This document shows positions 1 to 39,344 of a stretch of DNA of 39,344 nucleotides, piece by piece. A program made the position numbers and the translations under genes. Positions within the stretch are counted from its first letter, which is position 1. Every line of letters starts with the position of its first letter. Origin of the DNA: a virus; IMG/VR virus record IMGVR_UViG_3300035189_000042, positions 1-39,344 of that record; one strand, 5' to 3'. The notes beneath the pieces were generated by a model. That model was not told where the DNA came from. It saw nothing but the letters and a program-made list of their open reading frames with translations, and searched no databases.

Positions 1-126
1 CAACGGCATCGCCGAGTGGATCGTCTTCACCTTGCCGACGTGGCCCTCCACCACGGCGCGGCGTACATGCAGGATCGAGCCGGCGAAGTCGAAGTCGCCC
101 CACTTCAGCGCCAGCAGCTCCGAGAC
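1..126. repeat. Terminal direct repeat, left copy
   Basis: These 126 bases are identical to 39218-39343; the next base differs (C at 127, A at 39344). The integrase frame is uninterrupted across the join, so the repeat is best explained as the overlap of a circular or circularly permuted sequence and not as two biological copies. The non-redundant unit is about 39,217 bp. Confidence 0.93.
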
Positions 127-771
127 CCGCAGCCCGAGACACATCACGGCCAGCAGCATCAGGCGGAAGTTCTCGGCCGGAACCCGCGCGAGGATCTGCT
201 GGAACTGGACGACATCGATGACGCCGGGCGTGGCCTGGCGCTTGGTCGAGCCTTCGAGCGAGAAGAGCGACATGGGATTGGTCTGGGCCGGCACCCACTC
301 CCACAGCATGCCGAAGCGGAAGAGCAGCCGCATCATGTTGTGGATGTGGCCGCGATAGCGCGGGCTGCACTCCAGCTCCTTCAGCCAGGTGCGGACATCC
401 TGCGCCTTGACCTTGGCGATCGGGACTTCGCCCCAGCGCGGCCGGATGTGGCAGCGGATCAGCTTCTGGTACCCGCGGCGCGTGCTGTGACGCTCCGGAA
501 TCTCCTCGTCGATGTAACGGTCGATCAGGTCGCCGAAGGTGCGGCGATCGGCGAGCAGATGGTTGGGCCTGGAGTTGAAGGTGTCGCGGATCGGCTGGGC
601 GGCGCGGCTGGCGGAGGCCTTGGTCGGATACTGGCTCAGCAGCCCGACGCGGAAGCGCGGGCGCGACGGGTTACCTGGGGTGTGATCGGTGAAGCGGATC
701 TCCCAGTAGAGGCCGTCGGCCGAGTTACATTTTGTAATAGTGCCTTGCTGGTGGCGGCGCTTCCTCTGCAT
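1..771 (-). CDS. int: Phage integrase (tyrosine recombinase), N-terminal 257 residues; gene continues at 39217-38849
   Basis: First part of a 379-residue site-specific tyrosine recombinase that would insert and, with an excisionase, remove the phage genome at an attachment site. Translation starts at ATG 771 (MQRKRRHQQG) and runs off base 1 exactly at a codon boundary; joining it to 39217 keeps the frame to the stop at 38849. This part holds the basic N-terminus, the SAM-like core-binding domain (about residues 75-165), the catalytic arginine R215 in GLRVSELL and the beta-hairpin lysine K249. The start overlaps the end of the excisionase-like gene (725-985) by 47 bases, so the two are probably cotranscribed leftward. 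A short start at the 5' Met is favoured because the frame is open directly upstream of the first conserved segment. Function is secure; the attachment site was not identified. Confidence 0.93.
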   Translation of the reverse strand, partial: MQRKRRHQQGTITKCNSADGLYWEIRFTDHTPGNPSRPRFRVGLLSQYPTKASASRAAQPIRDTFNSRPNHLLADRRTFGDLIDRYIDEEIPERHSTRRGYQKLIRCHIRPRWGEVPIAKVKAQDVRTWLKELECSPRYRGHIHNMMRLLFRFGMLWEWVPAQTNPMSLFSLEGSTKRQATPGVIDVVQFQQILARVPAENFRLMLLAVMCLGLRVSELLALKWGDFDFAGSILHVRRAVVEGHVGKVKTIHSAMPL

Positions 772-3377: not shown

Positions 3378-3571
3378 TGGCGAAGAAGAAACCCTCCCCC
3401 GAAGAGTTGAAGGCGTTGCAGGACGCGATCGCCACGCAGCTCGCCTACGACCGCGCGAAGGCCTGGGCGTTGAGCGTTCCCGGCACACCCTACGGCAGTA
3501 CAACCCCAAACCGCAGCGCGGAGATGACCGCGTATCAAAGCGGCCATCGCCACGAATACCCGAACTGCTGA
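3377..3571 (+). CDS. Small hypothetical early protein
   Basis: A 64-residue protein starting MAKKKPSPEELKALQDAIA, with a helical, charged first half and a polar C-terminus (SGHRHEYPNC). The start overlaps the previous stop by one base (TGATG), and AGAGGG precedes it by 8 bases, so it belongs to the same early operon. The longer upstream frame is a shadow of the zinc-finger gene. No family is recognised. Confidence 0.65.
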   Translation: MAKKKPSPEELKALQDAIATQLAYDRAKAWALSVPGTPYGSTTPNRSAEMTAYQSGHRHEYPNC

Positions 3572-3597
3572 AGCACGAAGAAAGCGAAGGAACCGAT

Positions 3598-5430
3598 TTG
3601 GCGAACGAGAAGAAAAGGCCGGTGCGAGGACTGCGTAAGGCGCGGCATGGCTGGTTTGACTACGAGGTTCTCGACGTCTTCGGCGATGAGTTGGGGCCGT
3701 TCGGGCTGACCGTGTACATGGTGCTGGCGCGGCTTTGCTATGGGGGCACGCGGGTGTGCAGGAGCCCGCGGGAGCTGGAGAACGATTGTCGTATGAAGAA
3801 GTCGAAGCTGGCCGAGTGCATCAACACCCTGGTGCGGCTGAATTTGATCTTTGAGGTCAAAGGGCGCACGACTCTATCTCGGAGATGCTTCGATCTGCTG
3901 GATGTGAAGGATTTAATCGAGCAGATGCTTGGCTGGGGGATTGCAGTGCGACAGAGTGATGGAACTGTCCGTGTGGCGGACAGTTACAAGGAGCGCTTCC
4001 CTGTGGGCTGGAGGGAGGCTCTGGAAGCATCCTTGGGCTCAAATCATCCTGTAACTATTGGCGATGCGCCCAGCAGTCTGCAATCGCCGGGAGACGGTAT
4101 TGAGGATTTGGAGGCGTTCGAGATGGATGGGTTGGCGGAGGGCAACTGTCCGCCACACGGACAGATGGAGGGTTTCGGCCGCGCAGACGGTTTTGAGGGT
4201 GATTTTGCTGCCGACCTTGCCGCCACACGGACAGATGGAGCCGCCACACGGACAGATCTGTCCGCCACACGGACGGGGTTTAATTATAAGAAAGAAGAAA
4301 TAGAAAAGAACAACACTCCCCCAACCCCCGCAAGCGGGGGCTCCGGGGACGAGTTGATTTTTCCGAACGAGATTCGCAGACGCGGCGACCCGAACTTCGT
4401 GTTTTGCCGAACGATGGCGGCGGCGTGGGTGAGGCGGCGGTGCGGGTTCTCGGATCGGCGCTACGAGCGATTCATTGGGGAGGCGCTGGAGTTGGAATTG
4501 GACCGGGCCGCGGGCGGGATGACGCTCGACGACCTGGCGAGGACGGCGGCTTCGGAGTATACCGAGCATCGCCGCATGCACACGGACGGGCTGCTGAAAT
4601 TCAACATTCCGACGCGCCAGTTCTTCGCCGAGGGCGCATGCTTCGATCGCAACAAGTGGGGCATCGACGCCAGGCAGGCGCGGGCGATGAGCGCGGCGGC
4701 CGTGGGGATGCGGACGAACGGCGAGAGCCATGCCGAGCCGGCCGGCGATCAGCGCTTGGCGGCGTGGATCGACGCCAACGCGCGGATGATTGCGAGTGCC
4801 TATCCGGATCTGGCGCAGAGGGTGCGGTTGGAGGCAAACTTCGCCGCGACGGGCACGAAGGAGTTGACGCAGATCGACGCGGCGTTGCAGGCGATCGAGG
4901 ATGAGCTGGTCGCGAAGATGCTGGCATCAGCACCCGGCGGCGTGCTCAACGAGTTGCGCGAAAAGGCGGCGCAGGATCTCGGCCAGGCGCGGGTGCGGAT
5001 GACCGATGTTCAGCAGGCCGAGGTCATTCAGCAGCACATCGAACGGGCGCTAGTGAAGGCTCGCGGACTTCCCCGCCTGAGCGTGTTTTACATGCCGGCG
5101 AACTTCACACCTGGCAACGGCCACGACGTGACTGTTCAGCCCGATCCATGGAAGGCGGTGAAGGCGGAGCTGGAGCGCCAATTGGAGCGGCTGCCGGCGA
5201 AGCAGCGGGCTAAGGCGGTGGTGTTGTACAGCAAGTGGGTTGAGCCGGTGGTGCTGGCGGCGATCGAGATGGACGGCGATGCGCCGGTGTGGAAGCTGGC
5301 GTCGCCCTACCGCAACAAGACCGAGCAGGTGCTGAGCAAGTTTCGCCGCGTGGTCGCGCCGCTGATCCGGAAGGTGGCGAAGGCCGAGGTGCAGTTGGTG
5401 GTCGTGAATGCAGCGGAGGTTGAGCCATGA
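3598..5430 (+). CDS. Replication initiator (lambda O-like) with winged-helix N-terminus
   Basis: Probable origin-binding initiator of 610 residues. TTG 3598 is preferred as start because AAGGA lies 7 bases upstream and similarity-like sequence begins there (ANEKKRPVRGL). Residues about 18-105 form a winged-helix domain (GPFGLTVYMVLARLCY, then RSPRELENDCRMKKSKLAEC and RLNLIFEVKGR). Residues 120-240 are a low-complexity linker encoded by the iterons of the origin (4146-4274), with peptide echoes ATRTDG, ATRTDL and SATRTG. The C-terminal 360 residues are helical and charged and may recruit the host helicase; they match nothing I recognise. An origin inside the gene of its own initiator is the lambda O arrangement. 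The length is about twice lambda O (299 residues). It overlaps the next gene by ATGA. Confidence 0.78.
   Translation: MANEKKRPVRGLRKARHGWFDYEVLDVFGDELGPFGLTVYMVLARLCYGGTRVCRSPRELENDCRMKKSKLAECINTLVRLNLIFEVKGRTTLSRRCFDLLDVKDLIEQMLGWGIAVRQSDGTVRVADSYKERFPVGWREALEASLGSNHPVTIGDAPSSLQSPGDGIEDLEAFEMDGLAEGNCPPHGQMEGFGRADGFEGDFAADLAATRTDGAATRTDLSATRTGFNYKKEEIEKNNTPPTPASGGSGDELIFPNEIRRRGDPNFVFCRTMAAAWVRRRCGFSDRRYERFIGEALELELDRAAGGMTLDDLARTAASEYTEHRRMHTDGLLKFNIPTRQFFAEGACFDRNKWGIDARQARAMSAAAVGMRTNGESHAEPAGDQRLAAWIDANARMIASAYPDLAQRVRLEANFAATGTKELTQIDAALQAIEDELVAKMLASAPGGVLNELREKAAQDLGQARVRMTDVQQAEVIQQHIERALVKARGLPRLSVFYMPANFTPGNGHDVTVQPDPWKAVKAELERQLERLPAKQRAKAVVLYSKWVEPVVLAAIEMDGDAPVWKLASPYRNKTEQVLSKFRRVVAPLIRKVAKAEVQLVVVNAAEVEP
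3963..3985. repeat. Outlying origin iteron, reverse orientation
   Basis: A 23-base inverted repeat with 8-base perfect arms AACTGTCC and GGACAGTT around GTGTGGC. Its 19-base core (3965-3983) is the exact reverse complement of the iteron at 4146-4164. It lies about 160 bases upstream of the main group. Confidence 0.8.
4146..4274 (+). repeat. Origin iterons (four direct copies)
   Basis: The core CCGCCACACGG occurs at 4150, 4220, 4241 and 4262. The last three are exactly 21 bases apart (two helical turns). The first copy is the complete 19-base element CTGTCCGCCACACGGACAG (4146-4164); later copies keep most of the flanking GACAG or CTGT. Copies 4 and 5 share the palindrome GACAGATCTGTC (4251-4262). 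These are likely initiator-binding sites. Confidence 0.82.
4276..4340. other. Candidate unwinding element and hairpin of the origin
   Basis: Directly after the last iteron, about 40 bases (4278-4315) are roughly three-quarters A/T in otherwise GC-rich DNA, with a purine-rich top strand. They are followed by a perfect hairpin CCCCCGC-AA-GCGGGGG at 4325-4340. Iterons, AT-rich region and stem-loop in this order resemble ori-lambda. Confidence 0.72.
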
Positions 5431-5684
5431 TCCTCGGGAAAGCAAAGCACCCCGATGACTGCCCGCCCTGGGCAATGTGCTGTGACAAAACGCGCGACAA
5501 AATGCGCGAAACACACACAAACCGCATCGTGCGCTTCAAGGGCAAACCATTCCTCGCTGAGATTAAATGTCCTTGGTGTGGGCGAATTGAAGCCAATGTG
5601 CCGACGATGCGCCTTGTCGGGAGAGGCAGGCGCGCCGCTGCAGCGCTACCGCTGTTTGAGTTGGATGAAGGCGAGGAGCTATGA
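5427..5684 (+). CDS. Small zinc-ribbon-like protein
   Basis: An 85-residue protein with a first Cys group (DDCPPWAMCCDK) and a second (IKCPWCGRIEA), consistent with a zinc ribbon of the CxxxxxxC ... CPxCG type. The last 25 residues are basic then acidic. The start overlaps the initiator stop (ATGA at 5427-5430) and the stop overlaps the next start (ATGA at 5681-5684), so it is translationally coupled between the initiator and the receiver protein. Function unknown; nucleic-acid binding is plausible. Confidence 0.7.
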   Translation: MILGKAKHPDDCPPWAMCCDKTRDKMRETHTNRIVRFKGKPFLAEIKCPWCGRIEANVPTMRLVGRGRRAAAALPLFELDEGEEL

Positions 5685-6103
5685 GACCAAAGAAAGTCAT
5701 TTTGTGCGTTGACGACAATGAGCAGGCGCTGTCTGTGCGGCGGTTCCTTTTGGACACGCGCGGCTATCGCGTCATCACCGCCTCGACCTCGCAGGCGGCG
5801 CTGGAGATTCTCGAACGCACAGTGCCAGGGACGCTCGATCTGCTGATCGCGGATCTCTTGATGCCAGGGATGGATGGCAACGAGCTGGTGCGCCGGGCCA
5901 AGCAGATGCATCCTTCCCTTCCCTGCCTGATCACCAGCGGGACGGTTGCGAGCTACGACCGCGCGCCCACGTCGAGCGAGCTACTGGAGCGGATACGTGT
6001 GCTGGTCGCGCGCAAACGCGGGCCGAAGCCGCATAGTCCGCCACCGTTTTATGCGCCGCAGCGTGAGGTTGCGGATGTTTTGCCGGAGCGCTTGAGGGCT
6101 TAG
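5681..6103 (+). CDS. Stand-alone response-regulator receiver domain (CheY-like)
   Basis: A 140-residue protein whose first 115 residues are a receiver domain: acidic pair D11-D12 in ILCVDDNE, phospho-acceptor D58 in IADLLMPGMDG, and T85 in LITSGT. The usual lysine after strand beta-5 (KPF) is replaced (RAPTSSELLERI), so phosphorylation switching may be altered. There is no DNA-binding output domain; the C-terminal 25 residues are Pro-rich and basic. Receivers are common in bacteria but rare in phage genomes. It is coupled to the genes before it and its last codons form the first units of a repeat array (6083-6144) upstream of parA, so a link to partition or host signalling is possible but unproven. 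Confidence 0.85.
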   Translation: MRPKKVILCVDDNEQALSVRRFLLDTRGYRVITASTSQAALEILERTVPGTLDLLIADLLMPGMDGNELVRRAKQMHPSLPCLITSGTVASYDRAPTSSELLERIRVLVARKRGPKPHSPPPFYAPQREVADVLPERLRA

Positions 6104-6144
6104 GCACCTAAGCACCTAGAGTCTTACGAACCTGAGAACCGAGG
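6083..6144. repeat. Partition-type repeat array 1 (8 hexamers, 8-bp period)
   Basis: Eight hexamers start every 8 bases: CCGGAG 6083, CTTGAG 6091, CTTAGG 6099, CCTAAG 6107, CCTAGA 6115, CTTACG 6123, CCTGAG 6131, CCGAGG 6139. Most fit CYTRRG in one orientation or the other, separated by 2-base linkers. The array covers the end of the receiver gene and the leader of parA, with the parA start 7 bases beyond. Likely operator and/or centromere for the RHH protein. Confidence 0.72.
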
Positions 6145-6151
6145 AGACGGA

Positions 6152-6748
6152 ATGATTGTAACGGTGATGAATTGCAAGGGTGGAGTGGGCAAGACGACGA
6201 CGGCCGGACACCTGGCGGCGTATCTGAACCGGCACGCGCCGACGCTGCTGCTGGATAGCGACGAGAGCCGCAACGCGATCACCTGGGCGGGCAACGGCAA
6301 AGGCCTGGGCTTCAAGGTGATGCCGATGGCGGCCGGCGCGATGTTCGCGCGGGATTACGTCCACACGGTGATCGACAGCGCGCAGGCGCCCAGCGAGCGG
6401 GACCTGGAGGCCGCGGCGCAGGGCTCGCACCTGCTGGTGATTCCGGCGGTGCCGAAGGAGATGGACACGGCCGGCCTGGTGGCAACGATCAAGCTGCTGC
6501 AGAAGACGGGCTCGACCAACTACCGGGTGTTGTTGACGCGCGTGGCTCACCACATGGCGGGCGCGGCGAAGGTGCTGCGCGAGGAGCTATGGGTGGTCGG
6601 CGCACCGGTATTCGAAGCGGAGATCCCGGAGCTGAAGGTATTCGACACGGCGGTGGGCGCGGGGCAGATCGTGTGCTGTGTCAAAGACCCGCAGGCGGCG
6701 CGGGCCTGGGCGGCGTATGAAGCGGCCGGCAAGGAGCTGGGAGTATGA
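6152..6748 (+). CDS. parA: ParA-family partition ATPase
   Basis: A 198-residue P-loop ATPase that should move or position the genome on the nucleoid. The deviant Walker A motif CKGGVGKTTTAGHLA covers residues 8-22, LLLDSDESRNA follows at about 33, and the Walker B-like HTVIDSAQAPSERDL at about 71. The short length and absence of an N-terminal HTH fit type Ib ParA, which work with small ribbon-helix-helix centromere-binding proteins, as found directly downstream (overlap of 4 bases at ATGA). The leader contains an 8-unit repeat array that could bind that partner. The sequence after the motifs is degenerate compared with chromosomal ParA, usual for plasmid and phage forms. GGAGACGG precedes the ATG. 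Confidence 0.9.
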   Translation: MIVTVMNCKGGVGKTTTAGHLAAYLNRHAPTLLLDSDESRNAITWAGNGKGLGFKVMPMAAGAMFARDYVHTVIDSAQAPSERDLEAAAQGSHLLVIPAVPKEMDTAGLVATIKLLQKTGSTNYRVLLTRVAHHMAGAAKVLREELWVVGAPVFEAEIPELKVFDTAVGAGQIVCCVKDPQAARAWAAYEAAGKELGV

Positions 6749-7074
6749 GCGGACTAGCGAATCATTTCGCGGTGCTGAAGGCGGGTGCAGAGCCCGAGGC
6801 ACCTAAGAGCCTAAGCACCCCGGTTCGCGTCCGCGACCTGGGACAGGGCGAGGGCGAGGGAAAGACACCGAAGCGCGCGGCGCGCGTCCCGGCCGTGACC
6901 AGGACGGCAGCGTCGCCGGCTACCGGCAAGAGCAGCCATCCGGAGTATGAGCCGGTGAAGATCTACGTGCGCAAGCAGACTCGCAAGGCGGCGTGGCGGA
7001 AGTGGGAAGACGCTGAGGGCGGCGACTTCTCTGACCTGGTGCAGCATTTGCTGACGGAGTACCTGAGCGCTTGA
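6745..7074 (+). CDS. ParB-type ribbon-helix-helix centromere-binding protein (ParG-like)
   Basis: A 109-residue partner of ParA. Residues 1-65 are polar, Pro/Ala/Lys-rich and probably disordered, like the flexible ParG N-terminus. Residues 68-109 fit a ribbon-helix-helix: strand VKIYVRKQ, helix TRKAAWRKWEDAEGG and helix DFSDLVQHLLTEYLS. The gene starts within parA (ATGA) and both of its ends carry 8-bp-register repeats (6794-6823 and 7054-7115), the expected binding sites. ParG and omega proteins likewise bind iterated short boxes and also repress their operon. Fold assignment is from pattern only; no sequence comparison was run. Confidence 0.72.
   Translation: MSGLANHFAVLKAGAEPEAPKSLSTPVRVRDLGQGEGEGKTPKRAARVPAVTRTAASPATGKSSHPEYEPVKIYVRKQTRKAAWRKWEDAEGGDFSDLVQHLLTEYLSA
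6794..6823. repeat. Partition-type repeat array 2 (4 hexamers)
   Basis: CCGAGG 6794, CCTAAG 6802, CCTAAG 6810 and CCCCGG 6818 keep the same 8-base register. They lie inside the 5' part of the RHH gene, encoding part of its disordered N-terminus. Confidence 0.6.
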
Positions 7075-7115
7075 GTGCGCGAGAGCTTAGGCGCTTAGGT
7101 GCCTGAGAGCCGGAG
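7054..7115. repeat. Partition-type repeat array 3 (8 hexamers, 8-bp period)
   Basis: ACGGAG 7054, CCTGAG 7062, CTTGAG 7070, CGCGAG 7078, CTTAGG 7086, CTTAGG 7094, CCTGAG 7102, CCGGAG 7110. It has the same length (62 bp), unit number and register as array 1, and spans the end of the RHH gene and the gap to the next gene. Candidate centromere. Confidence 0.72.
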
Positions 7116-12782: not shown

Positions 12783-14317
12783 TCGAATCCTTAGACCTCT
12801 CTGAAGCGCGCAGCGCGCTGATGTCCGAACGCAACACCATCGCGCCGGCCGTCAAGGCGCGCTCCAACTTCGCCGCCGCCCGCATGACCCGCACCACCGA
12901 GGATTGGGGCGTCTCCAACAGCTCCGCCGACCTCGACCTCTGGGCGAATCTTTACGCGCTGCGCGGACGAGCGCGCCGCCTGTCGACTAACAACGCCCTG
13001 GTCCGCAAGTACCTCCGCATGTGCCAGAAGAACATCGTCGGCGACAAGGGCATCAAGCTGCAGATGAAGGTCCCGATGAAAAAGGGGAAGAAGCTCAATA
13101 AGAAGCTGAACCTCGAAATCGAAGCTGCCTTCACCCGCTGGTGCCGCAAGGAATTCTGCACCGTCACCGGCAAGCTGTCGTGGGCCATGGCCCAGCGCTT
13201 CGCGGTCGAGCAGTGGAAGCGCGACGGCGAATGCCTGATCCGCATGGTCACCTACGATCGCGGCAACCCGTTCAACTTCTCGCTGCAATTCTTCGATCCC
13301 GACCAGCTCGACCTCAACTACTTCAACTACCTGATGCCCAACGGCAACCAGATCCGCATGGGCGTCGAGACCGATCCCTACGGCAAGCCCGTCGCCTACC
13401 ACCTCTGGAAGCGCCACCCGGCGGAGTACTCGACGGCGCCGCAGTTCCGCATCCGCGTCCCGGCGGAGGAGCTCGTAATGCTCTACAGCGAGCAGCGCGT
13501 CGGCCAGACCCGCGGCTATCCCGAGTTCGCACCGTCCATGATCTCCGTCCACATGATCGGCAAGTACGCCGAGAGCGAGGTCATCGCCGCCCGCATCGCG
13601 ACCGAGAAGATGGGCTTCTTCGAGTCCACCGCCGGCGAAGAGGGTTACACCGGGCCCCGCGACGAAGAGAAGAACCTGGTCATGGAGTCGTCGCCTGGAA
13701 AATTCGAGCAGCTCCCCCAGGGCCTCAGCTTCAAGCCCTGGGACCCGCAGCACCCCACCCAGGCCTTCCCGTTCTTCATGAAGTCGCTGATCCGCATGGC
13801 CGGCGCCGGCATGGACGTGAGCTACGAGGCGCTGGCCAACGATCGCGAAGGCGTCAACTACTCGTCGATCCGCGCCGGGCTGCTCGACGAGCGCGACACC
13901 TGGCGCCTGGAGCAGGACGTCGTCAAGACCGTCTTCTGCCGCGCCATCTTCGAGCGCTGGCTGGAGCACGCCTGGCTCGCCGGCGAGATCAAGCTCGACG
14001 GTTTGCCTTCGGACTATTCCGAGTACGCGTTCTTCCACGCCCGTGGCTGGCCGTGGATCGATCCGCTCAAGGATGCGCAGGCCGCGGTCCTCAACGTCGA
14101 GAACGGCTACGAATCGCAGTCCGAGCAGATGGCTGAGAGCGGCAACGACTTCGAAGAGACGATCGACATGATCAAGTACGAGCAGGATTACGTCGCCGCC
14201 TCCGGAGTCAAGCTCGGCACCGACACCAAGGGCATCGCCGACACCGCAACCGACACCGAGGCCGATGATGCCGCGGCCGCGAGCGGCGGGAAGAAGCCAG
14301 AGACGGGCGGGAATTAG
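12779..14317 (+). CDS. Portal protein (lambda gpB family)
   Basis: A 512-residue protein that forms the dodecameric DNA gate at one capsid vertex. Characteristic stretches include ARMTRTTEDWG, RGRARRLSTNNALVRKYLRM, NIVGDKGIKLQ, ERRW-like WKRDGECLIRMV, FFDPDQLDLNY, IRMGVETDPYGKPVAYHLWK, the VPAEELVMLYSEQRVGQTRG loop and YSSIRAGLLDERDTWR. The length is near lambda gpB (533). The start at 12779 overlaps the gpW-like stop; the long open frame upstream is a shadow. The C-terminal 40 residues are acidic and Ala/Thr-rich and probably disordered. Confidence 0.94.
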   Translation: MIESLDLSEARSALMSERNTIAPAVKARSNFAAARMTRTTEDWGVSNSSADLDLWANLYALRGRARRLSTNNALVRKYLRMCQKNIVGDKGIKLQMKVPMKKGKKLNKKLNLEIEAAFTRWCRKEFCTVTGKLSWAMAQRFAVEQWKRDGECLIRMVTYDRGNPFNFSLQFFDPDQLDLNYFNYLMPNGNQIRMGVETDPYGKPVAYHLWKRHPAEYSTAPQFRIRVPAEELVMLYSEQRVGQTRGYPEFAPSMISVHMIGKYAESEVIAARIATEKMGFFESTAGEEGYTGPRDEEKNLVMESSPGKFEQLPQGLSFKPWDPQHPTQAFPFFMKSLIRMAGAGMDVSYEALANDREGVNYSSIRAGLLDERDTWRLEQDVVKTVFCRAIFERWLEHAWLAGEIKLDGLPSDYSEYAFFHARGWPWIDPLKDAQAAVLNVENGYESQSEQMAESGNDFEETIDMIKYEQDYVAASGVKLGTDTKGIADTATDTEADDAAAASGGKKPETGGN

Positions 14318-23090: not shown

Positions 23091-24095
23091 ATGAGCACCC
23101 GTCGCGGCAAACCCGCGCCCTCACCGCTGACCCTCGGAAGCAACACAACCTCCCTGGTCAAATTGGTTCTGGCAGAGCTTCCGTCCCCCGAGACCCGGCG
23201 CAGCTATGCCCGGTCGATCACTGCTTTGGACACCTACGCGGAGGGTCGCCCGCTCACACTCACCCTGCTCCTGGAATGGCGCGCGGTGCTGGCAGCCAAG
23301 TTCTGCAGCGGCGGCGTGAACGTGCGAATTGCAGCCATAAAGAAGCTGATCCGCACGGCGCGGCGTACCGGCCTGATCGATGCCGAGACAGCCTCGGAAT
23401 TGCTCGAACTCAAGGGCATGCCCTATCGCGGCACACCGACAGGGAACTGGCTCAGCCTGGAGCAGGCCCGTGCACTGCTCGCCGCCCCCAACCGCAAGAC
23501 GCTTCGCGGCCGGCGCAACTATTGCATCCTGGCGATTATGATCGGCTGCGGCTTGCGTCGCTCTGAAGTTGCAAGCCTGACCATGAAGCATATCCAGGAG
23601 CGCGAAGGTCGGCCCGTCATCCTCAACCTCGTGAGTAAGGCTGGAAGAGTTCGCACCGTGCCTATCCCAGACTTTGTGAAGGTGGCGATCGATGAGTGGA
23701 TTGCCGTCGCGAAGATCAATTCCGGCCTCCTTATCCGGAGGACTACGCTGGCGCCCGAAGGTCTCAGCACCTACGCCCTTTGGCATATCGTTCACCAGAC
23801 CGCAGCGAAGATCGGGATCGAAAACCTTGGACCCCACGATCTCCGGCGTACCTGCGCCGGACTCTGCTTCAAAAACGGCGGTGAGATCCAGCAGATCCAG
23901 TTCATGCTCGGCCACGCCAGCATCGTCACCACCCAGAGATACCTGGGATCGATCCAAGGCTTATACGTTGCCGTGAACGACTTTCTGGGGCTCGATATTC
24001 CGGAGTTGCAACGGACGCCGGAGGAGCGCCGCGCCATAGAAGAGCTTAAGGCCCTGATAGCCTCACGCGCGGAAAAGCCGCCTTCGAATTTGTAA
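23091..24095 (+). CDS. Second tyrosine recombinase (XerC/D-like)
   Basis: A 334-residue recombinase with a phage_int_SAM-like N-terminal domain (SLVKLVLAELPSPETRRSYA and VNVRIAAIKKLIRTARRTGL) and a complete catalytic set: R156 in GCGLRRSEV, K183 in SKAGR, H249-R252 in HDLRRT, H275 in MLGHASIVTT and Y284 in QRYLG. It is unrelated in detail to the junction integrase and nearer to Xer/insertion-element recombinases. It might resolve genome dimers, act on the nearby palindrome, or belong to a mobile cassette. It sits exactly where gene orientation changes from rightward tail genes to leftward tail genes. The C-terminal 45 residues extend beyond the catalytic core. Confidence 0.9.
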   Translation: MSTRRGKPAPSPLTLGSNTTSLVKLVLAELPSPETRRSYARSITALDTYAEGRPLTLTLLLEWRAVLAAKFCSGGVNVRIAAIKKLIRTARRTGLIDAETASELLELKGMPYRGTPTGNWLSLEQARALLAAPNRKTLRGRRNYCILAIMIGCGLRRSEVASLTMKHIQEREGRPVILNLVSKAGRVRTVPIPDFVKVAIDEWIAVAKINSGLLIRRTTLAPEGLSTYALWHIVHQTAAKIGIENLGPHDLRRTCAGLCFKNGGEIQQIQFMLGHASIVTTQRYLGSIQGLYVAVNDFLGLDIPELQRTPEERRAIEELKALIASRAEKPPSNL

Positions 24096-29271: not shown

Positions 29272-31428
29272 TTAGTTGATGATGGTGTACATCACGTTGA
29301 CCGGATGGCCGGTGGGCGCGACGGGCAGGGTGATGGAGAAGCTGGTGCCGGCCGTGATCGCGGAGAGATACGGCGGGATCAGCGAGGCGATGTTGGTGGG
29401 GGCCGTAATTCCGACGACGGAGAAGGTGAGCTGAATCTGGCTGTTCGCGGTCACTGCCGTGGTGTTGATCGTTAGGGTGGTCGCGCTGGTCGCAACCTGC
29501 ACCACGCCGGAAGCGGCAGATCCGCACACCGCCGGCGACGCCGTGGAGTTGCCGTTCGTCGCCGTGGCCAAAGTCGTGGTGTTCAGTCCGGCCATGAAGT
29601 AGGTGAGCTGGTGCAGATAGCTCAGGCCGACGCCGCCCGCGGCCCCGATGACGTACTCGAAGATGGTGGTCGCGTTGACGAAGTCCCAGAGATAGAAGTG
29701 GTAGGCGTTGTAGGTCGTTCCGGCGACCGCGACGAGGGCGCCGCTCGAGTTCATGCCGCCTTCGCAACCCATCGAAAAGACCGTGGTGTTGTGGGCGCCG
29801 TTAGTGAAATTGAAGCGCGTCACCGGGTTGTTGTAGTTGGTGGAGTCGGACTGCGAGTGGTACTCCACGCACATCTGTCCGAGCCCGGCGGCGACGCCTC
29901 CGCCCTGCCCGTTGCTGAGGACGACGTAACCCTTGGGGTTGGAGCTATTGGGTACCAGCGTGACGGTGTTGCTGCTGGTACTGGAGCCCGAGCCGCCAGT
30001 GATCGAGACGGTGCCGTTGGCGCCCCCGAATGCGCCGGAGAGTCCGAGGAAGCCGGTGCCGGCGGTGCCGCTATTGCCGATGAGCGCAAGGATCCCGCTG
30101 CCGGAGCTGAGAGTGCTGCAGCCGGTGATTGAGGTGGTCCCGGCTGTGCCGGTCGCGATGCCCTGGATCGTCGGGATGATCGCCGTGCCGGTGAGCGTCG
30201 GCGAGGCCGTCGGCGCCTTGGCGTTGAGCTGCGTCTGGATGGAGCTGGTCGCGTCGACGAACGCCATCGTCGCGGGCGTGACGCCGTCGACGGTCTTGTT
30301 GGTGAGCGTCTGGGTGTCGGTGGTGCCGACGATCGTCCCGGCCGGCGCGGAGGCCGCCGGAATGGACGCGGCGATCGCGGCGGCCTGCGCGGCGGTTGCA
30401 GCACCGGATGCGTCGTAGACTCCGGAGCCGATGGTGGTCTGGACCTGCGCCGAGGTGGCGAGAGCTGCCACGCCGGAGTTGCTGGCGACGATGCCGGTGC
30501 CGGCGGGCGCGGGACCTGCCGGGCCGGTTGCGCCCGTGCTTCCGTTGCTGCCATTCGTCCCGTTGGTGCCCGCGGCTCCGGTCGCGCCCGTTGCGCCAGT
30601 GGGGCCAGTTGCTCCGGTCGGTCCTGTGGCGCCGGTTGCACCCGCGCTGCCGGCCGCGCCGGTGGTTCCCGTGGCTCCAGTTGCCCCGACCAGCGAGGCG
30701 AGCCACGCGGTGAGGTTGCCGGAAAATCCGTTGAGCACCGCCTGCGCGTAGGCAGAGAGGCCCGTCGCGCCGGTGGCTCCAGCCGCGCCCGTGCTGCCGT
30801 TGCTGCCATTCGTCCCGTTGGTGCCCGCAGCTCCAGTCGCGCCGGTTGGGCCGGTGGCTCCGGTCGGTCCTGTCGCACCGGTTGCGCCCGTGGCACCGGT
30901 TGCACCCGCGCTTCCGGGCGCTCCCGCTGCTCCGGCTGGTCCGGTGGCCCCAACCAGCGAGGCCAGCCACGCCGTCAGATTGCCGGAAAATCCGTTGAGC
31001 ACCGCTTCGCCGTAAGCGGAGATTCCCGGAATGCCCTGCACGAAGGGAGCGAGGACCTGTGAATTTGGCTGGTAGGTGTCGAGGTTGAAGCTCGCGGTCG
31101 CCGTGGGAGCGGCGGCGAACTGCACGCCCTTGATCGTCGAGATCGCCGCGCCGTTGTTGTCGCGGATGACGAACCGGTAAGAGATGTTGGGTGGCTTGGT
31201 GAGTGCCGTGTCCGCCACCCAGGAGGTGCTCGCGGGAATTGCGCCGGCGGCGATCGGGAAGGTTGCGAGGTCCGAGATCTGGCCGCCGTTGCCGCCCGCG
31301 CTGGCCGTGATCAGGCAGTCGTTTTCATCGGTCGGCGTGACGCACAGAGTTCCCAGAGCCAGCAGCTTGCCGCTTGCGTCCTGGCACAATGTGGCGACGA
31401 GCGCGGTGAATCCTGCCGGCGTGGACAT
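29272..31428 (-). CDS. Collagen-like tail fibre
   Basis: A 718-residue fibre. Residues 1-125 are an attachment domain paralogous to that of the next gene ([20 protein letters not shown] ... SFNLDTYQP). Residues 136-306 are two copies of an 83-88 residue unit, each starting SAY-x2[15 protein letters not shown] and continuing as Gly-X-Y repeats ([10 protein letters not shown]), which should form a collagen-like triple helix. The middle part holds [19 protein letters not shown], typical of tail fibres, and the C-terminal 200 residues form the distal head. ATG 31428 is 7 bases from a -10 box (31436-31441). Confidence 0.85.
30511..31023 (-). repeat. Tandem duplication with Gly-X-Y coding repeats
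   Basis: Two in-frame units at 31023-30760 and 30759-30511 encode [20 protein letters not shown] plus collagen-like triplets. The short GC-rich internal repeats are prone to slippage, so unit number may vary between isolates. Confidence 0.8.
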
Positions 31429-38902: not shown

Positions 38903-39344
38903 ATCCTCCAGGCGGACCTGGCCGTAGACCTGCGCCGTGGTGCGGATGTCGGCGTGCCGCATCAGGTCGCGCTGCACCGTCAGCGGGACTTTGTCGGCGT
39001 CCATCCACGATTTGTAACTGTGTCTGAACGTGTGCCAGCCCAGCGAGAACGGCAGCCCGATCGCCTGGCCCAGCGGGATCAGCACCCGCGTCTGGACGGT
39101 CGAGGCGGAGTACGGGTGCTCGCCGGCACTGGTCGGGAAGACCCAGTCGTCGTCGAGCGCGTAGGGCGTGTGCGCGCGCCAGCGCAGGAAGTGCTGGGCC
39201 AGCAGCGAGTCGAGCGGCAACGGCATCGCCGAGTGGATCGTCTTCACCTTGCCGACGTGGCCCTCCACCACGGCGCGGCGTACATGCAGGATCGAGCCGG
39301 CGAAGTCGAAGTCGCCCCACTTCAGCGCCAGCAGCTCCGAGACA
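38849..39344 (-). CDS. int: Phage integrase, C-terminal part (continues at 771-1)
   Basis: Completes the 379-residue integrase begun at 771. Read from 39217 to 38849 it adds residues 258-379, with the box II motif H319-T-F-R322 (LGWHTFRHS), H345 in MRHADIRTT and the nucleophile Y355 in QVYGQVR. Bases 39218-39344 repeat the codons already present at 1-126. The stop at 38849 lies 54 bases inside the opposing small secreted gene. An attachment site is expected next to one end of this gene; none could be recognised. Confidence 0.93.
   Translation of the reverse strand, partial: VSELLALKWGDFDFAGSILHVRRAVVEGHVGKVKTIHSAMPLPLDSLLAQHFLRWRAHTPYALDDDWVFPTSAGEHPYSASTVQTRVLIPLGQAIGLPFSLGWHTFRHSYKSWMDADKVPLTVQRDLMRHADIRTTAQVYGQVRLEDLREANSDVVSQAMGKGN
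39218..39343. repeat. Terminal direct repeat, right copy
   Basis: Identical to 1-126 (see left copy). Confidence 0.93.

Follow-up and report, generated by a model that had tools for sequence, protein, structure and literature searches.

A putative type Ib partition cassette with hexamer arrays in 8-bp register in a soil phage genome

The window, by which the whole analysed stretch of 39,344 bases of the soil phage record IMGVR_UViG_3300035189_000042 is meant, carries a parA gene followed by a gene for a small protein that is proposed to belong to the ribbon-helix-helix (RHH) type. Hexamers repeated every 8 bp form one array upstream of the two genes, one inside the RHH gene and one at its 3′ end. 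The features are as follows.

3445–5430, plus strand: putative replication/initiation (Rep-like) gene; approximate start, presumed function
5681–6103, plus strand: stand-alone response-regulator receiver domain (PF00072, E 4.3e-14)
6083–6144: upstream array, 62 bp, eight hexamers in 8-bp register; proposed parS-L and operator
6152–6748, plus strand: ParA-type Walker ATPase, 198 aa, without N-terminal HTH extension
6745–7074, plus strand: proposed RHH centromere-binding protein (ParB/ParG analogue), 109 aa
6794–6823: internal array, four hexamers within the part of the RHH gene that encodes the N-terminal tail
7054–7115: downstream array, 62 bp, eight register positions; proposed parS-R
23091–24095: tyrosine integrase

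Comparison of the window ends revealed an identical direct repeat of 126 bp at positions 1–126 and 39218–39343. Because of these identical ends, the genome of about 39.2 kb is probably complete and either circular or terminally redundant. Genes for a terminase, a capsid protein, a tape-measure protein, a CI/S24-like repressor and a tyrosine integrase are present, and the 126-bp ends, the CI-like repressor and the integrase are consistent with a temperate phage with a circular genome. The record ends split a second tyrosine recombinase gene or integrase fragment (38915–39343 plus 40–201, minus strand). With two integrase genes, the phage may integrate instead of living as a plasmid. The Rep-like gene lies 0.7 kb upstream and is followed by the par genes. 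It has no match in Pfam or PHROG, and six of the nine phage records with par genes contain a similar gene. The phage also encodes the stand-alone receiver domain directly before the upstream array; this gene is regarded as a neighbour outside the mechanism proposed below.

The product of the parA gene matches PF01656 (E 1.4e-10) and phrog_164, “ParA-like partition protein” (E 5.6e-18). The nearest solved structure by sequence is the Synechocystis plasmid ParA, PDB 3cwq (E 3.4e-39), and the fold predicted by AlphaFold is confident (pLDDT 88). Alignment and model agree on a small ParA with the deviant Walker A motif KGGVGKT, intact nucleotide-binding motifs and no N-terminal DNA-binding domain, as in type Ib partition systems. 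The other type Ib features, a small RHH protein encoded just downstream of parA and an array of short direct and inverted repeats at the operon, are also found. In the ParA tree the protein sits on a long branch (0.86) relative to its clade.

The start of the RHH gene overlaps the stop of parA (ATGA). The model of the 109-aa product consists of a low-confidence, probably disordered N-terminal tail and two C-terminal helices, the strand not being formed in the monomer. We propose a beta-alpha-alpha C-terminus in which Lys72, within VKIYV, is the base-reading residue. The protein alone matches none of the RHH Pfam models, including ParG (PF09274), and its assignment as a putative RHH protein rests on its relatives. 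The C-terminal part aligns with small proteins encoded after parA in plasmids, and several of these match the Omega_Repress (4e-5), RHH_1 and ParG models. Significance was not reached with the ParG model, to which one of 14 family members matches with an E of 0.023. The family profile matches RHH/ParG weakly (ParG E 0.29) and mycobacteriophage ParB with an E of 1.1e-5 and a probability of 82%. A Foldseek search with the monomer model gave no usable fold match, as expected because RHH proteins are obligate dimers.

The upstream array is composed of the units CCGGAG, CTTGAG, CTTAGG, CCTAAG, CCTAGA, CTTACG, CCTGAG and CCGAGG and ends 7 bp before the parA start. The units of the internal array are CCGAGG, CCTAAG, CCTAAG and CCCCGG, and those of the downstream array are ACGGAG, CCTGAG, CTTGAG, CGCGAG, CTTAGG, CTTAGG, CCTGAG and CCGGAG. 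Re-scoring of the sequence reproduced the coordinates, the 62-bp lengths and the strict 8-bp spacing given in the first-pass annotation. Its claim that the units fit CYTRRG in either orientation applies exactly to 11 of the 20 units (4/8 upstream, counting CYTRRG and CYYARG, 2/4 internal and 5/8 downstream) and does not apply to the other nine, of which seven, including the remaining two internal units, deviate in one position and two in two positions. The latter are ACGGAG and CGCGAG of the downstream array, for which 7062–7115 is the safer extent because these units are poor. The arrays run across stop codons and coding sequence as originally described: the upstream array begins within the receiver-domain gene, whose TAG stop lies inside a CTTAGG box, and the TGA stop of the RHH gene falls within a CTTGAG box of the downstream array. 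None of the three arrays extends in register on either side, and no fourth hexamer array in 8-bp register with a comparable score is present in the whole window. A sigma-70-like promoter was not found near the array.

For scoring, each hexamer was compared with CYTRRG and with its reverse complement, CYYARG, and the mismatches were summed over eight units. The score is 4 at 6083 and 5 at 7054, while the best of 100 Markov-simulated windows reached 13 and the best eight-unit scores in the same window at steps of 6, 7 and 9–13 bp were 12–16. With 2 mismatches, the four-unit array at 6794 is also better than the best of 100 simulated windows, which has 3. The 8-bp periodicity thus stands out from simulated sequence and from other spacings. 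For the upstream and downstream arrays, the shortfall of shuffles and other spacings refutes the idea that coding or base composition produced the register, which could otherwise draw on the GC-rich genome and on the internal array being entirely, and the other two arrays partly, coding. The same idea is contradicted by the occurrence of 8-bp arrays in AT-rich cyanobacterial plasmids and in intergenic DNA, and by internal arrays of relatives that exceed synonymous re-coding; its chance of being correct is negligible. A match at a 7-bp step was also noticed at 13716. It lies inside the structural-gene region and looks like a chance match.

A set of 61 loci with a related ParA and an RHH gene was assembled from plasmids, viral contigs and whole genomes, the last from the phyla to which the two entry genomes, one acidobacterial and one cyanobacterial, belong. 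A scan of genome contigs returned an excess of generic KGGVGKTT ATPases and was used only for loci serving as entry points of the phylum search. Scanning of the viral contigs with the window ParA or RHH as single proteins gave no matches, and an alignment query was needed. Relatives in which parA is followed by a small RHH-type gene belong to Acidobacteriota, Pseudomonadota, Cyanobacteriota, Thermus and Deinococcus or are phages. An earlier array score was so strict that it did not detect even the window; the scores used instead were calibrated on shuffles, with NYYRRN as the family motif, in which the YYRR core counts and the outer bases are ignored. Arrays with this core in 8-bp register are present in 44 of the 61 loci, compared with 5.6% of Markov shuffles. 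Steps of 5, 6, 7, 9, 10, 11, 12 and 13 bp gave arrays in 4, 4, 3, 3, 2, 0, 4 and 0 loci, respectively, and a motif-free lag scan agrees with the motif-based one. The arrays precede parA in 36 loci, follow the RHH gene in 19 and are contained in it in 9, and 17 loci have no array under the score used. Loss of the periodicity in relatives that keep both proteins, named by the first-pass annotation as evidence against its own reading, is therefore not seen at the level of the family. The CYTRRG box is one variant of the family-wide NYYRRN box, and the closest phage clade (L098, L099, L100, L103, L107 and L112) has CYYRRG boxes like the window. In L104, L105 and L106, boxes of a similar kind are spaced by 9 bp and not by 8 bp at all three positions; in L104 they are found upstream of 5001, at about 5700–5750 and from 5945 onward.

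RHH dimers such as Arc, MetJ, CopG and omega read the major groove with residues of their beta-strands. The beta-strands of the family were aligned and the share of C:G in the outer base pair of the boxes was scored. In the nine loci with a lysine two residues before the conserved aromatic residue (Lys72 in the window), this share is 0.77–1.00. In the 35 loci with other residues in this position it is 0–0.50 (p 5e-6). The lysine column is the best predictor among 15 columns of the beta region, the next one reaching p 0.008. The separation persists with one representative per ParA cluster at 70% (p 5e-5) and 60% (p 0.001); clustering at 50% leaves a single lysine representative. An effect of GC content is ruled out by twelve non-lysine loci with a GC of at least 0.55, which show 0–40% C:G. 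The lysine label changes three times on the ParA tree: in the acidobacterial-phage clade, in Thermus and in a reversal to threonine in L108, where the C:G share is down to 0.40. By eye, boxes of the sequences CCTAAG, CCGGAG and CTTAGG can be recognised on both sides in L141, a lysine locus below the array threshold. Lysine is not necessary for C:G, because C:G boxes also occur without it in the mycobacteriophage RedRock (GTCGAG/CTCGAG) and in L196 (0.50). RedRock ParB has a glycine near the lysine column, and its boxes have G on one side. Since RHH beta-strands read the major groove, such covariation is the signature expected of an RHH protein that binds the arrays. It appears to tie the RHH protein to the arrays, and one beta-strand residue probably reads the repeats.

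The internal array of the window exceeds synonymous re-codings of the RHH tail with the CYTRRG motif (p 0.009) and not with the looser YYRR score (p 0.47). It is short, weak and moderately supported. Longer internal arrays were found in relatives. The RHH gene of L098 contains 16 consecutive CYYRRG-type boxes (1806–1931), and its tail is made of octad repeats such as LGAQAPRS; the eight-residue repeat arises because 24 bp equal both three box steps (3 × 8) and eight codons. Seven units are present in L099 and nine in L011, a Bryobacterales plasmid, and the phage relatives range from 7 to 16. In the cyanobacterial locus L161, 48 consecutive register positions with full and near NYYRRN matches lie inside the RHH gene. 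This array occupies 2179–2560 (genome G493, reverse complement of the stored locus), and the RHH tail is unusually long, about 170 aa. The internal arrays of L098, L099, L011 and L161 exceed 1000 synonymous re-codings (p<0.001), the values for L011 and L161 being approximate as the codon usage of the phage clade was applied throughout. The excess is weaker in L107 (p 0.009) and L103 (p 0.046), and L108 and L112 have no internal array. The simplest reading is selection on the DNA and not on the protein alone. The internal array had been put forward as new; no precedent was found and the relatives support it, although it is weak in the window itself.

We propose that the segment 6083–7115 is a type Ib (ParA plus RHH) partition cassette, which would pass the prophage on to both daughter cells, and that the prophage is maintained at least for some of the time as a low-copy circular plasmid (probability about 0.88). 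The interpretation of the arrays as parS and operator, made in the first-pass annotation, is supported by the gene order and the ParA homology, and the recurrence of arrays in 44 of 61 relatives and the covariation of box and beta-strand also point to it. By analogy with omega of pSM19035 and ParG of TP228, RHH dimers would bind consecutive hexamers in 8-bp steps, a single dimer occupying each box and placing its beta-strands in the major groove, where Lys72 would favour C:G at both outer positions of the box. The dimers are expected to line up along the array without spreading past it. The coated upstream and downstream arrays would form the centromere, which would be captured and moved by nucleoid-bound ParA-ATP. 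RHH tails would be presented to this ParA from the coated arrays, and the N-terminal tail is expected to stimulate the ParA ATPase. By binding the upstream array, situated at the junction of the preceding gene and parA, the RHH protein would also repress parA–RHH transcription, this array doubling as the operator.

That the arrays are operators only, the RHH protein being an autorepressor and ParA acting elsewhere or partition having been lost, would agree with the upstream array abutting parA, with the frequent role of RHH proteins as repressors, with the long ParA branch and with the weak internal array. However, this leaves unexplained why arrays follow the RHH gene in 19 of 61 loci, and does not account for the intact nucleotide-binding motifs of ParA or for RedRock, in which an equal two-sided layout is an active partition cassette (PMC7157519). 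We consider it improbable. Still less probable is that the arrays are replication iterons of the upstream Rep-like protein, to which the short distance to its gene and the homologues in six related phage records could point. The 8-bp arrays occur together with parA and the RHH gene, their box covaries with the RHH beta-strand, and several relatives contain, apart from the 8-bp arrays, separate repeats of 22–23 bp, a usual length of iterons. These repeats, which are probably replication iterons, are located at 3954 in L007, 4971 in L008, 4061 in L010, 4348 in L012 and 3609 in L016.

The partition cassette proposed for the window can be compared with several known systems. The original study of parABS of RedRock, which belongs with the cluster A actinobacteriophages, is reportedly that of Dedrick et al. 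2016. In RedRock, parS-L and parS-R, each with eight copies of an 8-bp motif, flank parAB, and the parABS system stabilises plasmids experimentally (PMC7157519). In our reading of the RedRock DNA, the 8-bp periodicity was 39/48 on the upstream side of parAB and 37/48 on the downstream side. A parAB pair flanked by two eight-unit arrays with 8-bp spacing is thus already known. Both phages are temperate and have a small ParA, an RHH-type ParB, a YYRR core (TCGA in RedRock) and a right array that overlaps the stop of the parB or RHH gene. Unlike the window, RedRock has direct GTCGAG/CTCGAG repeats followed by TA, and its parB has no internal array. It also lacks an integrase, whereas the window phage carries integrases and so differs from an integrase-free extrachromosomal prophage. 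The divergence is deep: the ParA proteins share 32.6% identity (E 2e-7), RedRock ParB matches the RHH protein at the profile level only, with the E of 1.1e-5 given above, and no direct match to the window RHH was found in phage records. The window cassette probably works like RedRock parABS, and close family membership has support at the profile level only.

A two-sided layout is also known from par2 of pB171, arranged as parC1-parA-parB-parC2 with centromere sites on both sides of parAB (PMC4270457). The flanking symmetric layout, which had been thought new, therefore has precedents in RedRock (PMC7157519) and pB171; in other respects the first-pass reading appears correct, and the cassette is real and looks like a functional type Ib system. 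The Synechocystis ParA (3cwq) and its downstream partner have the gene order of the window, with RHH C-termini that are 47–49% identical, and pSYLA (L002) has an 8-bp array upstream of parA as in the window. In the Synechocystis system the outer pair is mostly not C:G, and the beta position is occupied by serine instead of lysine. ParF-ParG-parH of TP228 combines a small ParA, an RHH protein with a disordered N-terminal tail and short degenerate boxes with spacers (PMC7308502), and ParG has both operator and centromere roles (PMC5016525, PMC7308502). It differs in its tetramer boxes, AT-rich spacers and a centromere located upstream only, and the similarity of ParG to the RHH family is weak (E 0.29). 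In the delta/omega system of pSM19035, an RHH protein binds contiguous short repeats in mixed orientation, with 7–10 units per site; ParB needs at least four contiguous boxes and activation of the ATPase at least four repeats (PMC9499535). Its repeats are non-palindromic 7-bp WATCACW heptads, its genes are transcribed separately and its sites lie at promoters.

Beyond these systems, the analysis adds an 8-bp rule that applies across the family, a residue likely to determine specificity and, in relatives, probable centromere arrays within coding sequence. A readable cis signal is thereby linked to a large group of small, hardly annotated “hypothetical proteins” whose genes come after parA in soil phages and on plasmids of Cyanobacteriota, Acidobacteriota, Thermus and Deinococcus. 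This could allow the prediction of centromeres and incompatibility groups from sequence data. A specificity hypothesis based on one residue is offered as well. The family may encode its centromere in the gene for the RHH tail, and a switch between lysine and serine, threonine or glycine may change the outer pair between C:G and other pairs and thereby set incompatibility groups; we put this forward tentatively, at slightly less than even odds. If true, the same DNA would be translated by ribosomes into the ParA-activating tail and would then be bound by the completed protein, a possible natural case of a centromere array doubling as the coding sequence of its own binding protein. Elsewhere in the window, a putative tail or fibre gene contains a 250-bp tandem duplication with 73% identity (30515–31028).
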